Made by a program: the position numbers and the translations under genes. Below are positions 14,530 through 21,099 of a DNA stretch of 64,000 bases, piece after piece (the stretch's first letter is position 1; each line of letters opens with the position of its first letter). The notes below the pieces were generated by a model, which worked only from the letters and a program-made list of their open reading frames with translations, ran no database searches and was not told where the DNA came from. The stretch lies in the NCBI GenBank assembly GCA_016938065.1, contig JAFGVI010000118.1:1-64000 (forward strand), in the 5' to 3' direction. This DNA is from Deltaproteobacteria bacterium (GTDB lineage Bacteria; Desulfobacterota; Anaeroferrophillalia; Anaeroferrophillales; Tharpellaceae).

Positions 14530-15300
14530 TTATCTCCCCAGCAGTTTCTGCTGGTGCTGGCGGTAAGCATCACGCACCGCGACATAAGGATCAATGGCGC
14601 CACTCAGCATCTTCTCGTACTCGCCAAGTTGAAAAGATGTCCGGTTAATGGCGTTGGAAGCCTGCACGCCGACCGCCGCCAGCGGATCATGGCTCAAGGT
14701 ATAAAAAAGAGGTGAGGTCAGGGTGTCGCCGGCGAGACCGCAAGTACCCCGCAGATCGTTGGGCCCGAAAAAAGGCAGTACCAGATAAAAACCTCGGCCA
14801 CATCCGTACGTCGCCAGGGTTGAGGCGAACTGACGCTCGTGCGATTTCATCCCGTCAAAACCCGCAGGATCCATCAGACCACCGACCCCGGCTGTGGTAT
14901 TGAGCAAAAAACGGAGAAAGGTCTCTTCCGCCGCCTTAAAACGCCCTTGCAAAAGCAGATTGATAATCCTGGTCGGCTCAAGAAGATTATTGAAAAAGTT
15001 GAGCAGCCCGGTACGGAACATACTCGGCGTCACTTTGCGATAGCCGCGGGCGGTTGGTTCCACAACCCAGCGATGCAGGCGGTCATTAAACGTAAAAATC
15101 GCCCGGTTGAAGATCTCCAGAGGATCGTCCAGGCTGCCTTCGACCTTTTCGTCATACTCCGAAAACTCATCCTGATGTGCGTTTGTCAGGGCTGTCTCGG
15201 CCCGACAATTTTGCGGAACAAATAAAAAAGCAGCAAAAACCAAAATGCCGGTCAAAATGAACACCACTAAAAATTCACGATTCAGCCTCACGTTCCGCAT
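14530..15300 (-). CDS. mlaA: MlaA/VacJ family outer-membrane lipid-asymmetry protein
   Basis: 256 residues. After an N-terminal hydrophobic segment comes the MlaA core: DPLEIFNRAIFTFNDRLHRWV, then LNTTAGVGGLMDPA, and LVLPFFGPNDLRGTCG with a final DPYVAVRDAYRQ. MlaA removes misplaced phospholipid from the outer leaflet and hands it to MlaC. The signal region contains Cys at residue 33 but the preceding residues (VPQNC) are not a good lipobox, so lipidation is uncertain. GGAG precedes the ATG. mlaA sits inside the mlaFEDC operon, unlike Escherichia coli where it is separate. Confidence 0.93.
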   Translation of the reverse strand: MRNVRLNREFLVVFILTGILVFAAFLFVPQNCRAETALTNAHQDEFSEYDEKVEGSLDDPLEIFNRAIFTFNDRLHRWVVEPTARGYRKVTPSMFRTGLLNFFNNLLEPTRIINLLLQGRFKAAEETFLRFLLNTTAGVGGLMDPAGFDGMKSHERQFASTLATYGCGRGFYLVLPFFGPNDLRGTCGLAGDTLTSPLFYTLSHDPLAAVGVQASNAINRTSFQLGEYEKMLSGAIDPYVAVRDAYRQHQQKLLGR

Positions 15301-15303
15301 ACT

Positions 15304-15747
15304 CTACTCCACTTTACCAAAAACATATTTACTGATCAGCGCTTCTAGATCAACTGCCCCTTCAGTTTCAGTTATCCGGCCCCCGTCTTTAAGATAATCT
15401 TCTTCCGCACCGGGAGTCAGCTGCACATATTTATCACCGATAATCCCTTGCGTTTTTATCGAGGCGAAAACATCACTGCCAATTTTAACCTCGGGTTTGA
15501 GCGCCAGCACCACCCGGGCCTGATCATCCACCAGTGTTATCTCGGCGACCTTACCCACCTGAACCCCAGCAATCTCAACGCGGGCGCCGCTTTTCAGGCC
15601 GCTGACCGAATTGAAACTGGCGGAAACCTTATAGTAATCCCCGCCGAAAAGCTCAAGCCCCCCCAGATTAAGCGTCAGATAGGCGATTGCCAGCAAGCCA
15701 ACCACCATAAACAACCCAACCGACATCTCCAAATTAAATCTTTTCAT
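15304..15747 (-). CDS. mlaD: MCE-domain protein MlaD
   Basis: I start at the ATG at 15747 (MKRFNLEMSVGLF), which follows AAAAGG; the track start 16 codons upstream lacks this. The resulting 147-residue protein has one membrane helix (about 8-28) and a single MCE domain (about 35-115, VSASFNSVSGLKSGARVEIAGVQVGKV), as expected for MlaD, which forms a hexameric ring on the MlaFE transporter. GIIGDKYVQLTPG is the typical central pore-region segment. A 127-bp gap separates it from mlaF. Confidence 0.93.
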   Translation of the reverse strand: MKRFNLEMSVGLFMVVGLLAIAYLTLNLGGLELFGGDYYKVSASFNSVSGLKSGARVEIAGVQVGKVAEITLVDDQARVVLALKPEVKIGSDVFASIKTQGIIGDKYVQLTPGAEEDYLKDGGRITETEGAVDLEALISKYVFGKVE

Positions 15748-15874
15748 TGCCTTTTCCAACCTGAAAACCCTTCCCAAAAATAAATGCGCCCTCACCCGGC
15801 CTCTGCACTGCAGATCGACTTAAGACTCCTGCAACTTCAGCCAGACTTTACAACTGATGCGACGCCCGCCATGA

Positions 15875-16648
15875 TCAGACCTCATCGCGGCTGCTGTGCG
15901 CCGAGCCCATAACCCGAACAATAAAATCCCTGACAAAGGGGTCCCGACTCCGCTGCAGCGATTCCGGAGCAAGGCAGGCCCTGACCTTGCCCTGATGCAG
16001 TATGGCAATTTTGTCCGCCAGATTGAAAATTTTAGGAATATCATGACTGACAATAATACTGGTGTAGCCGAGTTTTTTCTGGGTCTCAAAGAACAGGCGG
16101 TAGACCTCGTGACTCTTCACCGGATCAAGACCGGTTGTCGGCTCATCAAACAGGAGAATGTCAGGCTCCAGTTGTAAGGCCCGGGCCAGACCAACACGTT
16201 TTTTCATACCGCCACTTAATTGGGCCGGAAACTTGTCGGCACTGCCTTCAAGATCCATCGTCTGCAGGGCGGCCGTAACCTTTTTTTCAACCTCCGCTTC
16301 GGGCAGACGACTGCGCTCACGCAGCGGCAGGGCGATATTATCAAAGACACTCATTGAATCAAAAAGAGCAACCCCCTGAAAAAGAACCCCGAAACGGGTG
16401 CGCAGACGGTTGAGAGCCGCCCCTTTAAGCCGGGTGACATCCTCTCCTTCAACCAGAACCTGTCCCCGATCCGGACGAATCAGACCAAGGATGTGCTTGA
16501 GCAGAACACTTTTGCCCTGACCGCTCTCACCACAGATAACGGTGGTCGCACCGCGCTCAATATCAAGATCAACCCCGCGTAAAACCGCTTGCGCGCCGAA
16601 ACTTTTATGAATATCGACCAGTTTGATACAAAATTCGGATTGAGTCAT
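15875..16648 (-). CDS. mlaF: Mla ABC transporter ATPase MlaF
   Basis: 257-residue ABC ATPase. Walker A GESGQGKS near residue 37, signature LSGGMKKRVGLARAL near 143, Walker B ILLFDEPTTGLDP near 163, H-loop IVSHD near 197. The LSGGMKKR signature is characteristic of MlaF/MCE-associated ATPases. It energises phospholipid movement by the MlaE permease. No strong ribosome site is visible and 74 bp separate it from mlaE, so it is probably read through from the mlaE promoter. A 89-codon ORF inside it in another frame is a shadow. Confidence 0.94.
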   Translation of the reverse strand: MTQSEFCIKLVDIHKSFGAQAVLRGVDLDIERGATTVICGESGQGKSVLLKHILGLIRPDRGQVLVEGEDVTRLKGAALNRLRTRFGVLFQGVALFDSMSVFDNIALPLRERSRLPEAEVEKKVTAALQTMDLEGSADKFPAQLSGGMKKRVGLARALQLEPDILLFDEPTTGLDPVKSHEVYRLFFETQKKLGYTSIIVSHDIPKIFNLADKIAILHQGKVRACLAPESLQRSRDPFVRDFIVRVMGSAHSSRDEV

Positions 16649-16722
16649 GAAATGTCTTGTTGTAAGGTTACTGCAATAATCTGCAAGCTTGCAGAAGTTA
16701 CCGTTAAAAATGCGAGAATATC

Positions 16723-17535
16723 CTACATCATCAGCGAGGTGATCACATAATCGGCCACCAGAACCGAGACCGATGAAACAACTACCGCCGAGGTTGTCGC
16801 CCGGCTCACCCCTTCGGCCCCGAACCCCCAGGCCCGTCGGTTAACCCAGAAACCGTGTTCGGCACAAATCCAGACGAGCAGAAAAGCAAAGCATAACGAT
16901 TTAGTAAAGCACATCTTGAGGTCAACCACCGTCACGCTGTCCCGCATACTGGCCAGATAAGCGCCACCATTGCCATGCAGAAGCACCACTCCGACCATGT
17001 ATCCGCCAAATACGCCAACCAGATTAAACACCGCCGTCAACAGTGGGATCGACAGCAACCCGGCAATAAGTTTGGGCGCCACCAGATAACGATAAGGGTT
17101 GATCGCCATGCAGTCTAAAGCATCGATCTGCTCCGAAATCCGCATGATCCCCAGTTCGGCACACATCGCCGAACCCGTACGACCAATCACCATCAGAGCC
17201 GTAAGCACGGGACCGAGTTCGCGAATCAGGCTTAAAGCTACCGCGGCCCCGAGTGCGCTGGCCGAACCATATTTGCTCAAGGTATAGTAGCCCTGCAGGC
17301 CCAGCACCATGCCGACAAAAGCCCCAGTAAAAAAAATCACCAGAAAAGAGCCCGCACCGATTACCTGAATCTGGCGCAAAACCGGCCTTAATTTATAAGG
17401 CGCCTGAACCACCCCGAGCAGGGTGTGCAACAAAAAGAGAGCTGAACGTCCCAGACTTTCAAGACTTCCCAGCCCCCAGCGACCTAACTTCTGCAAGCTT
17501 TCCAACAAGCCGATCCACCCTCCGTCACCGAGCAT
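16723..17535 (-). CDS. mlaE: Mla ABC transporter permease MlaE
   Basis: 270 residues with an N-terminal amphipathic helix and about five membrane segments. The family signature is seen as MVIGRTGSAMCAELGIMRISEQIDALDCMAINPYRYLVAPKL, quoted in part: GRTGSAMCAELG and EQIDAL. It is the membrane core of the MlaFED complex. It is the first gene of the mla operon. The ATG lacks a clear Shine-Dalgarno sequence; a promoter candidate lies about 30-55 bp upstream. Confidence 0.94.
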   Translation of the reverse strand: MLGDGGWIGLLESLQKLGRWGLGSLESLGRSALFLLHTLLGVVQAPYKLRPVLRQIQVIGAGSFLVIFFTGAFVGMVLGLQGYYTLSKYGSASALGAAVALSLIRELGPVLTALMVIGRTGSAMCAELGIMRISEQIDALDCMAINPYRYLVAPKLIAGLLSIPLLTAVFNLVGVFGGYMVGVVLLHGNGGAYLASMRDSVTVVDLKMCFTKSLCFAFLLVWICAEHGFWVNRRAWGFGAEGVSRATTSAVVVSSVSVLVADYVITSLMM

Positions 17536-17562
17536 GACAATTAAGTAAATTTAATCTAAGGG

Positions 17563-17591
17563 GAAATATACTAATTTAACTATACAGTCAA
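17563..17591 (-). promoter_or_regulatory. sigma-70-like promoter candidate for the mla operon
   Basis: On the minus strand TTGACT (17586-17591) is followed by TATATT after 15 bp or TATTTC after 17 bp. It lies about 30 bp before the mlaE ATG in an A/T-rich spacer. Sequence match only. Confidence 0.4.
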
Positions 17592-17722
17592 TCAGTTTTC
17601 GCAGACACCAGAGACCGACTTTCAATAATCGACAGCGATGCAAACCCCGAAAAATCATTCTCAACAAATAATTCCGCCATGATGGAAAACAGAGAGCCGT
17701 CTGTTTATCTTTAATTCTGAAA

Positions 17723-17758
17723 TTTACACTTGCAATTTATTTTTTAATAGAGTATAGG
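17723..17758 (+). promoter_or_regulatory. overlapping sigma-70-like promoter candidates for the RNA/fusA transcript
   Basis: Two hexamer pairs overlap. TTTACA (17723) and TAATAG (17745) with 16-bp spacing would start RNA near 17757, exactly at the GGG that begins the long-range helix. TTGCAA (17730) and TATAGG (17753) with 17-bp spacing would start near 17765 and truncate that helix. The first fits the RNA structure better; the second has slightly better hexamers. Confidence 0.45.
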
Positions 17759-17923
17759 GCGCCTGCTTTCTTACGAACCTTACATTCGGCTAGGTCGTAA
17801 GATGCCCGGTCGTCAGCAACCTTTATCAGACCGGCACCCCGTTACTACTGTTGTGAATAATCCATAATAGTCTATGGCTGATCAGATCGCCTGCCGTCGC
17901 AAGACAGCAGGCGCTCTTTTTTT
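17757..17923 (+). ncRNA. structured RNA upstream of fusA; 6S-like or leader switch
   Basis: A ~165-nt segment in the 475-bp mlaE-fusA spacer with a promoter before it and an intrinsic terminator at its end. The first 20 positions (17757-17776) pair with 17897-17916 at 18 of 20 positions, counting one G-U. The helix continues after a 10-nt bulge with CGGC..AGG..UC (17787-17796) against 17885-17896, giving a rod with an internal loop, as in 6S RNAs. The same 5' strand can instead form a local hairpin with 17795-17802, freeing the terminator. CCGGTC/GACCGG forms another hairpin inside. I recognise no known riboswitch motif. No conserved ORF is present. Bases 17592-17722 and 17924-18000 hold no other gene; GTGTGA/TCACAC pair just before fusA. 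Confidence 0.5.
17888..17923 (+). terminator. intrinsic terminator upstream of fusA
   Basis: CGCCTGCCGTC and GACAGCAGGCG flank a GCAA tetraloop (one C-A mismatch) and are followed by CTC and seven T. It ends 87 bp before the EF-G start, so either it ends a free RNA or it conditionally stops fusA transcription. Confidence 0.8.
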
Positions 17924-18010
17924 ATTGGAATCTGATTGAAGGTGTGAAAATCGTAATCAGCGTTTAAGCTCACACAACTATCGACAAAAGCGTAAAAAGG
18001 TGAAAAGAAC

Positions 18011-20101
18011 ATGAGCATTGAAATCAACAAGATACGCAATATCGGAATCAGCGCCCACATCGATTCGGGCAAAACCACGCTGACCGAAAGAATTCTCTTC
18101 TACACCCAGAGAATTCACGCCATTCACGACGTTAAAGGCAAAGATGGCGTCGGAGCCACCATGGACTCAATGGAACTTGAGAAAGAGCGCGGCATCACCA
18201 TTGCTTCAGCCGCCACCTTCTGCGAGTGGAACAAACATGAGATCAATATCATCGACACCCCGGGCCATGTCGACTTCACCATTGAAGTAGAACGCTCCCT
18301 CAGGGTCCTGGACGGGGCTATTCTGGTGTTGTGCTCCGTCGGCGGCGTCCAGTCTCAGTCCATCACCGTCGACCAGCAGATGAAACGCTACAAAGTTCCC
18401 TGCATCGCCTTTATCAATAAATGCGACCGCAGCGGCGCCAATCCCGAAAGAGTCGTTGAACAGTTACGGGACAAACTGGGCCATAATGCCATCGCCATGC
18501 AGATTCCGATCGGACTTGAAGCCGACCATAAAGGTGTCGTCGATCTGGCCTCCATGCGGGCCATCTATTTTGACGGTGAGAATGGAGAGGTTTTAAGATA
18601 TGAGGACGTTCCGGCGGAACTGCTGGAACTGGCCCAGGAGAAACGCGACGAGCTCATCGAACAGGCCTCCAATTACTGTGACGAACTCGCCGAGGCTTTC
18701 CTCGAAGAGCAGGAGATCAGCGCCGCAATGATTCTGAAGGCTCTGCGCAAAGGGGTTCTGACCCGCAGCGTAACCCCCGTCTATATGGGTTCAGCCTACA
18801 AAAATAAAGGCGTTCAGCCCCTGCTGGATGGTGCCGTCCAGTTGCTGCCGAATCCCTCTGAGGTCACCAATACCGCGCTGGATCTCGATAACAACGAAGA
18901 ACAGATCGAACTGGGCAGCTCCAACAGCGATCCCACCGTGGCTCTGGCCTTTAAACTGGAAGACGGCCAATACGGTCAGCTTACCTATATCCGAGTCTAC
19001 CAGGGCACCCTCGCCAAAGGCGACACCCTGATCAATACGCGCAGCGGCAAAAAGATTAAAATCGGTCGCCTGGTACGCATGCACGCCAGTCAGATGGAAG
19101 ATATCGACAAGATTCCGGCCGGCTATATCGGGGCTCTTTTCGGCATCGACTGTGCCTCTGGGGATACCTTTACCGATCCCAAACTGAACTACTCCATGAC
19201 CTCGATGTTTGTCCCCAATCCGGTCATCTCACTCGCCATCATTCCGAAAGACAACAAGGCTCAGATCAACATGTCCAAAGCCCTGAACCGTTTTTCCAAG
19301 GAAGATCCGACCTTTCGCACCTTCGTTGACGAAGAGACCAATGAGACCATTATCGAGGGCATGGGCGAGCTCCATCTGGAGGTCTACGTTGAAAGAATGC
19401 GACGGGAATACAATGCCGAAGTAACCACCGGCCAACCTCGGGTCGCCTACCGTGAAACCATCACCAAGCGGGCCGAGTTCAACTACACCCACAAGAAACA
19501 GACCGGCGGCTCCGGTCAGTACGGCCGGGTTGCCGGCTATATTGAACCTTACAGTGAAGGCGAGTTTGAATTCATCAATAAAGTTACCGGCGGCGCGATT
19601 CCGACCCAGTACATCTCCTCCTGCGAAAAGGGCTTTAAAGCCGGACTTGAGAAAGGTGCCCTGATGGAGTTCCCGGTTACCGGCATCCGGGTTGAAATCA
19701 ACGACGGTGCCGCCCATGCGGTCGACTCCTCGGAAATGGCCTTCCAGGCGGCCGCCCGCGGCGCCTTCCAGGAAGCCTACAAAAAAGCCAAACCGGTTAT
19801 CCATGAACCGATTATGAAGGTGGTTGTCGAAACCCCGACCGAGTTTCAGGGCACGGTAATGGGAACTATCAACCAGCGCCGCGGCACTATTCTCGGGGCT
19901 CAGGATGAGGGACCGATGTGCGTCGTTGAGAGCCAGGTGCCTCTGGCCGAGATGTTCGGCTACTCTACCGTCCTGCGCTCAAGCACTCAAGGAAAGGCTC
20001 AGTTCACCATGGAATTTTCCAACTATCGCCAGGTGCCTCAGAGTATCACGGAAGAGCTGCAGAAGAAAAAAGCTGAAGAGGGCAAAAAAGGCGCCGCGTA
20101 A
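18011..20101 (+). CDS. fusA: elongation factor G, spd/EFG1-like
   Basis: 696-residue translational GTPase that moves tRNA and mRNA through the ribosome. G1 is [15 protein letters not shown]2 ERGITI, G3 [10 protein letters not shown]4 NKCD; domains II to V follow at the usual length, with the domain IV tip region around GGSGQYG. The Ser in HIDSGKTT (usually Ala in standard bacterial EF-G) is the form seen in mitochondrial EFG1 and the spd EF-G group of spirochaetes, planctomycetes and deltaproteobacteria. AAAGGTG precedes the ATG. It stands apart from the rpsL-rpsG-tuf operon, as spd EF-Gs commonly do. A structured RNA and terminator lie upstream. Confidence 0.95.
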
Positions 20102-20157
20102 TGAGCTCTCAGAGTCATAATGCCCAGATCATATACCTTAAAGAGAGGAATTTTATA

Positions 20158-20853
20158 ATGTTAAAAAAAGACTTAATGGTGCGCAACCCCCTGCGGGCCG
20201 TCAGTGATGAACATGGTTACATTCTGCCGGAAGGCGGTTTAGGCGCAGTCGTAGCCCGAGCCGGGGTCGGCAAAACCGCTCTGCTGGTACAGCTCTCCCT
20301 GAATTCAATGCTTAAAGGCGACAAGGCCCTGCATATCAGTCTCGGCGACCCGGTAAGAAAGGTCAGCCTCTGGTACAGAGAGGTTTTCAACAATATCGGG
20401 GTCCATTATCATATCGAAAAAATCGACGAGCTTTGGAATGAACTCCTGCCGCAGCGGTTCATCATGACGTTCAATATTGATGGTTTCAGCGTCCCCCGTC
20501 TGGATGAACGCCTGACCGAACTTGCCGACCAGAATATTTTCATTCCGCAGATGATCCTGATTGACGGTCTGCCTTTTAACAGCGAAACAAAACGTACCGA
20601 TCTGCACGCGTTAAAAGAACTTTCCGAAAAGTTTAACTCTCACATCTGGTTTACGGTCCGCAGTCATCGTCATGAAGAGCCCGATCACGACGGCTTGCCG
20701 GTTCAGATTGCCGAATTTGCCGACCTGCTTGACGTTATCATCAAACTGGAACCCCGCAATGCAGCCATCGGCCTTAAAGTTTTAAAAGGCAGCGGCCCGA
20801 TCTCTTCCCAGGAGCTCTCACTGGATCCGGCCACGATGCTGATTAAACCGTAG
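20158..20853 (+). CDS. RecA/KaiC-like P-loop ATPase of unknown role
   Basis: 231 residues starting at the ATG at 20158 behind AGAGAGG; the track start at 20101 abuts the fusA stop and adds 19 unlikely residues. The Walker A is ARAGVGKTALLVQ (about residues 33-45) and a Walker B-like MILIDGLPF lies near 140. The pattern resembles a single RecA/KaiC core. KaiC-type autophosphorylation residues are not recognisable. It is cotranscribed with fusA and followed by a strong terminator. The pairing suggests, but does not show, a link to translation. The protein family is not one I can name with certainty. Confidence 0.7.
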   Translation: MLKKDLMVRNPLRAVSDEHGYILPEGGLGAVVARAGVGKTALLVQLSLNSMLKGDKALHISLGDPVRKVSLWYREVFNNIGVHYHIEKIDELWNELLPQRFIMTFNIDGFSVPRLDERLTELADQNIFIPQMILIDGLPFNSETKRTDLHALKELSEKFNSHIWFTVRSHRHEEPDHDGLPVQIAEFADLLDVIIKLEPRNAAIGLKVLKGSGPISSQELSLDPATMLIKP

Positions 20854-20890
20854 GGTTTTACGAAGTACCGCATAAGCCTATGATTATATT

Positions 20891-20920
20891 AAAAAAGACG
20901 GAGCCGGCTCCGTCTTTTTT
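20891..20920. terminator. bidirectional intrinsic terminator after the KaiC-like gene
   Basis: A perfect 30-bp palindrome: six A, GACGGAGCC, its inverse complement GGCTCCGTC and six T. It closes the fusA operon. Bases 20921-21099 contain no gene I can support. Confidence 0.92.
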
Positions 20921-21099
20921 CGTTACAGGATTATCGCCGAAGATGCTGAACGACAAAGGAAGAGAGCAAGAGGAGAAAATGCACCTGACGCCCCGCAGGG
21001 TAAAGGGTTACGATTTTTCTTGAATTCAACCGCGAAATATGACAGGCTCGGTTCCATCAGAAAAAATTTATTCCTGACTTACGTTCTGGAGTTTTTATT

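Follow-up and report, generated by a model that had tools for sequence, protein, structure and literature searches.

The window analysed here is a stretch of 64,000 nucleotides (nt) from a Deltaproteobacteria bacterium of the Tharpella family (assembly GCA_016938065.1, contig JAFGVI010000118.1, positions 1 to 64,000). Between mlaE (16723-17535, minus strand) and a gene for elongation factor G (EF-G; fusA, plus strand) it contains a folded stretch, 17757-17923, which an earlier note had read as a bistable structured RNA, either a 6S RNA homologue or a leader controlling fusA. The sequence comparisons below favour the leader: we consider it reasonably likely that 17730-17923 is the promoter and untranslated transcription-attenuation leader of a fusA gene of the spdEFG1 type. 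Features of the locus are collected in Table 1.

Table 1. Predicted features of the fusA leader and the genes that follow it (positions of the window)
Feature	Position	Strand	Evidence or remark
-35 element TTGCAA of the leader promoter	17730..17735	+	TTGCA invariant in 13 family members; 17-nt spacer to -10
-10 element TATAGG	17753..17758	+	Kept in 13 family members; relatives TATAGG/TATACG/TATTGG
G+C-rich promoter discriminator	17759..17764	+	With 17765-17766 contains the first CGCCTGC copy; predicted upstream of +1
Predicted start G17765 and 5' hairpin P1	17765..17805	+	17769-17776 pairs with 17795-17802, closed by GC/GC
Hairpin P2 (GCC.CGGTC / GACCGGC)	17804..17836	+	94% of cells paired; two-sided changes in 3/7 pairs
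A+T-rich linker with variable hairpin (about CCATA/TATGG)	17837..17884	+	From folds; covariation does not resolve it
Intrinsic terminator (stem CGCCTGC...GCAGGCG 17888-17913, T-run 17917-17923)	17888..17923	+	Conserved stem
Terminator-to-fusA region with AAGGTG ribosome-binding site	17924..18010	+	No convincing second promoter
fusA, EF-G of spdEFG1 / mitochondrial EF-G1 type; presumed controlled gene	18011..20101	+	TIGR00484 match, PDB match, KDG insertion
AAA_25-like ATPase gene, ATG overlapping the fusA stop	20101..20853	+	Pfam match weak, below cut-off

A conserved putative leader before a second EF-G gene

The leader was found in 13 genomes of the Tharpella family, one copy in each and directly before the spdEFG1-type fusA, and searches by DNA similarity, by EF-G orthologue and by covariance model agree on this set. 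The covariance-model search gave exactly one match per positive genome, just upstream of fusA, and matches only in this family; in a fourteenth genome (G010) the terminator is visible near a contig edge. The upstream neighbour varies (in some relatives an unrelated reading frame, recognised by eye, ends there in place of mlaE), so that the leader tracks fusA in the 13 genomes even where the gene on the other side differs. Relatives at the level of the order have a similar promoter and a different leader.

All 13 members share the promoter consensus TTGCA[AT]-N17-TAT[AT][CG]G (17730-17758 here), followed by the discriminator (mostly CCGCGT in relatives) and, at the expected +1, by GCTT or GCTTT. 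The start of transcription is predicted at about G17765. Downstream, the layout conserved in the family is P1, P2, linker, intrinsic terminator with T-run and then fusA, which preserves the order of an attenuator (promoter, intrinsic terminator, coding gene). The terminator stem is present in 13/13 members, some of which have a weaker T-run (e.g. G009), and G010 has the stem too in its partial locus. P2 and the terminator together pair in 94% of cells, and both hairpins show the two-sided, compensatory changes expected of conserved attenuator hairpins; slid controls drop to 22-42%. The covariance model (R1) covers P2 and the terminator only, and its MAFFT alignment misplaces the variable arm of P1. 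P1 is supported by independent folds rather than by compensatory changes: it refolds with other letters in relatives (CCGATC/GATCGG, CCGGTC/GACCGG, CTTACGA/TCGTAAG) and is weakest in the individual folds of G007, G011 and G009. When the RNA begins at the predicted +1, the terminator wins in every one of the 13 homologues, with probabilities of 0.79-1.0.

By the criteria of PMC3150367 (an insertion in switch I, affinity to mitochondrial EF-G1 and a place outside the str operon), the fusA of the window is a second, spdEFG1-type EF-G gene. It lies outside the str operon, and the str-operon copy, preceded by two reading frames resembling ribosomal proteins S12 and S7 (recognised by eye), is on another contig of the same genome. 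The best PDB match of the window EF-G is mitochondrial EF-G (816 bits vs 670 for bacterial EF-G), and that of the str copy is bacterial EF-G (852 bits vs 577 for mitochondrial EF-G). Switch I of the window protein also carries the KDG insertion that marks spdEFG1 (PMC3150367); spdEFG1 and spdEFG2 are described as dividing translocation and recycling between them (PMC4342817).

The ATPase gene that overlaps the fusA stop is probably its operon partner, and is perhaps co-transcribed with it. An Rfam STnc40 match at 20852-20954, scoring 39.6 bits on one strand and 26.3 on the other, stays under the cut-off of 45 and is probably not a small RNA (sRNA) homologue; it depends on the inverted repeat of a bidirectional terminator, with A- and T-runs, that follows the ATPase gene. 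Another inverted repeat, GTGTGA...TCACAC, lies within 17930-17980, between the terminator and fusA, and is common to close relatives.

The same layout in other Desulfobacterota

We scanned the orthologues of this EF-G gene at 60 loci of other Desulfobacterota (Desulfosarcina, Desulfonema, Smithella, Syntrophaceae and others). A TTGAC promoter with a terminator 40-75 nt after it was found before the gene in 39/60, a descriptive figure and not a test, since we fixed the promoter pattern and the range of distances after viewing the leaders, and not a count of independent events, the 60 loci being related. At identical settings the layout appeared in 1/300 shuffles and in 0/133 other genes of the same loci. 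The recurrence of a promoter and then a stop before the same gene in many related sulfate reducers and syntrophs suggests that its transcription is controlled there. In several orthologues a mere 30-38 nt separate the T-run from the ATG, too few to hold a separate promoter.

In the wider group the hairpins share a sequence of about ATCCCCCATCTGG...CCAAATGCGGGGATTTTTT, in which pairing is kept above most controls and specific letters such as CTGG/CCAAATG are retained. None of the six loci tested against Rfam gave a convincing family. An exact-pattern search for CCATCTGG...CCAAATG in 198 genomes of the phylum returned mostly chance-like matches, with one true case before EF-G confirmed. We also observed that a terminator hairpin of the form CCCCATCTGG...CCAAATGCGGGG, conserved in sequence and at a near constant distance from a TTGACA promoter, precedes spdEFG1 in Desulfobacterales and Syntrophales (loci L092, L105, L125, L131, L157 and others, mostly 30-140 nt before the EF-G start).

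It is conceivable, and we offer it tentatively, that spdEFG1 is under lineage-wide transcription attenuation across Desulfobacterota, with fast-changing leader RNAs sensing translation capacity or EF-G itself; under the same tentative proposal the CCCCATCTGG...CCAAATGCGGGG hairpin of Desulfobacterales and Syntrophales and the P1-P2-terminator arrangement of the Tharpella family would be two of its leader types.

Proposed attenuation and its alternatives

Given the promoter, the conserved hairpins, the terminator, the position before fusA and the recurrence of the layout, we infer the start site, the read-through and the regulation as follows. Transcription would start near 17765, and the nascent RNA would fold P1 and P2 and then the terminator (17888-17923). 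Polymerases stopping there would release an RNA of about 160 nt, and the others would read on into fusA and the ATPase gene that overlaps it. The fraction that reads through, and hence the EF-G level, may be set by the P1/P2/linker domain or by a protein or some other factor that acts on the terminator.

Several observations count against an attenuation leader. The -10 element is imperfect, and a stricter consensus promoter scan omits the one at 17753-17758 because its last base is not T. A conserved antiterminator, i.e. a pairing mutually exclusive with the terminator, was not found among the family relatives; the best candidate, the 3' arm of P2 with the 5' arm of the terminator, is energetically present in some truncated RNAs and was rejected, as two-sided changes are lacking and it does not exceed shuffles. 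Protein-dependent attenuators may do without a stable antiterminator. Nor was a conserved leader peptide found: an open reading frame with a ribosome-binding site before the terminator is absent in 10/13 members, and none is shared. The terminator is not evident by eye in the order-level relatives, and some orthologues in the wider group have no detectable terminator. Finally, the Tharpella leader resembles those of the wider Desulfobacterota in its layout and not in its sequence, so that they need not be of common descent.

A stand-alone sRNA gene of about 160 nt, ended by the terminator and followed by a weak promoter of fusA itself in 17924-18010, would account for the leader's own promoter, start-proximal hairpin, terminator with T-run and single copy per genome, and weak promoter-like matches do occur after the terminator. 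We regard it as unlikely, since the element always adjoins fusA in the Tharpella family and the terminator can be so close to the ATG in other Desulfobacterota. No convincing second promoter was found in 17924-18010, and the best post-terminator matches in relatives are weak (7-9 of 12) and inconsistent in position and sequence. Rather improbable, too, is a fixed and unregulated brake, in which a strong promoter would be held back by partial termination at a constant rate, without any sensing. Such a brake fits the dominance of the terminator in the ensemble of every homologue and the lack of a conserved antiterminator or leader peptide, but it needs neither P1 nor P2, both of which are conserved, and the wider-group hairpin retains specific letters.

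The switch proposed in the earlier note, in which the 5' end pairs with the 3' arm of the terminator in a long rod that blocks termination and excludes P1 plus the terminator, started from repeats that are all present: CGCCTGC occurs at 17760 and 17888 with a lone GCAGGCG at 17907, and the other stated segments are exact (TCTTACGA at 17769, TCGTAAGA at 17795 and TCGCAAGA at 17897). Positions 17757-17776 and 17897-17916 pair at 18 of 20 positions (17 Watson-Crick and one G-U), a value reached by 0/2000 dinucleotide shuffles. The stretch 17757-17923 folds at -60.8 kcal/mol (z = -4.7 vs shuffles), its minimum free energy structure is closed by the rod, and the 3' arm of the terminator pairs elsewhere with a probability of 1.0. 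For the full-length stretch, however, the rod dominates in this genome only: the 12 related leaders, which mostly have CCGCGTGC at the position of the rod 5' arm, match their own terminators, in the register of the rod, at no more than 7-12 of 20 positions, and the terminators of these relatives form with probabilities of 0.72-1.0. The rod 5' arm moreover begins inside the -10 element, spans the discriminator and lies mostly upstream of the predicted +1; in this genome too, the rod probability falls to 0.0 when the RNA starts at 17765. The two folds are mutually exclusive only if the RNA contains 17757-17764, an inclusion that the promoter geometry makes unlikely, and as a working switch the pair of folds is very improbable.

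Because the relatives pair poorly, the rod vanishes from the predicted +1 and the terminator forms in all 13, the 18/20 complementarity seems to be a peculiarity of this lineage and not a working fold. The 5' region possibly became a near inverted copy of its own terminator half, as the scar of a template switch (quasi-palindrome). P1 could, on such an origin of 17757-17776, have been kept by changes in its 3' arm.

A 6S RNA homologue binding RNA polymerase, to which a length near that of 6S and the rod-like closing stem of the isolated stretch had pointed, can be set aside as having a negligible chance: the RF00013 covariance model gave no match in 15000-21000 even at E up to 5, the genome has a true 6S gene above the Rfam cut-off elsewhere (G000:C136:47844-48022; 6S genes were found in 21/22 genomes searched, this one included), and the long rod, which 6S RNAs conserve with an open-promoter-like central bubble, is here unique to one genome. 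Among the 4227 models of Rfam 15 nothing convincing was found in the leaders, including known riboswitches and leaders.

Relation to known leaders of translation genes

EF-G supply is central to translation, and we know of no account of how two split-duty EF-Gs are balanced in bacteria that keep both. If one of the EF-Gs is indeed preceded in several orders by a conserved promoter-proximal terminator that Rfam lacks, this would be a direct handle on EF-G balance. In the passages found in the open-licence literature, no leader of spdEFG1 or of a desulfobacterial fusA is described.

Attenuators before translation genes are themselves a known kind (PMC2965389, PMC2704228, PMC7247131), and the fusA leader resembles the rimP- and rpsL-leaders in carrying an intrinsic terminator ahead of a gene for a translation factor; a search of the text of PMC2965389 returned no mention of Geobacter, Desulf- or deltaproteobacteria. 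The ribosomal leader candidates of PMC7247131, e.g. the deltaproteobacterial L20 leader, are likewise family-specific structured leaders of translation genes, but the main text mentions no leader of EF-G or fusA. The rpsL motif of Candidatus Pelagibacter is a structured 5' leader of str-type genes that occasionally stands before fusA; it differs in having a bulged stem and a three-stem junction, and it is reported only from Pelagibacter and marine metagenomes (PMC2704228).
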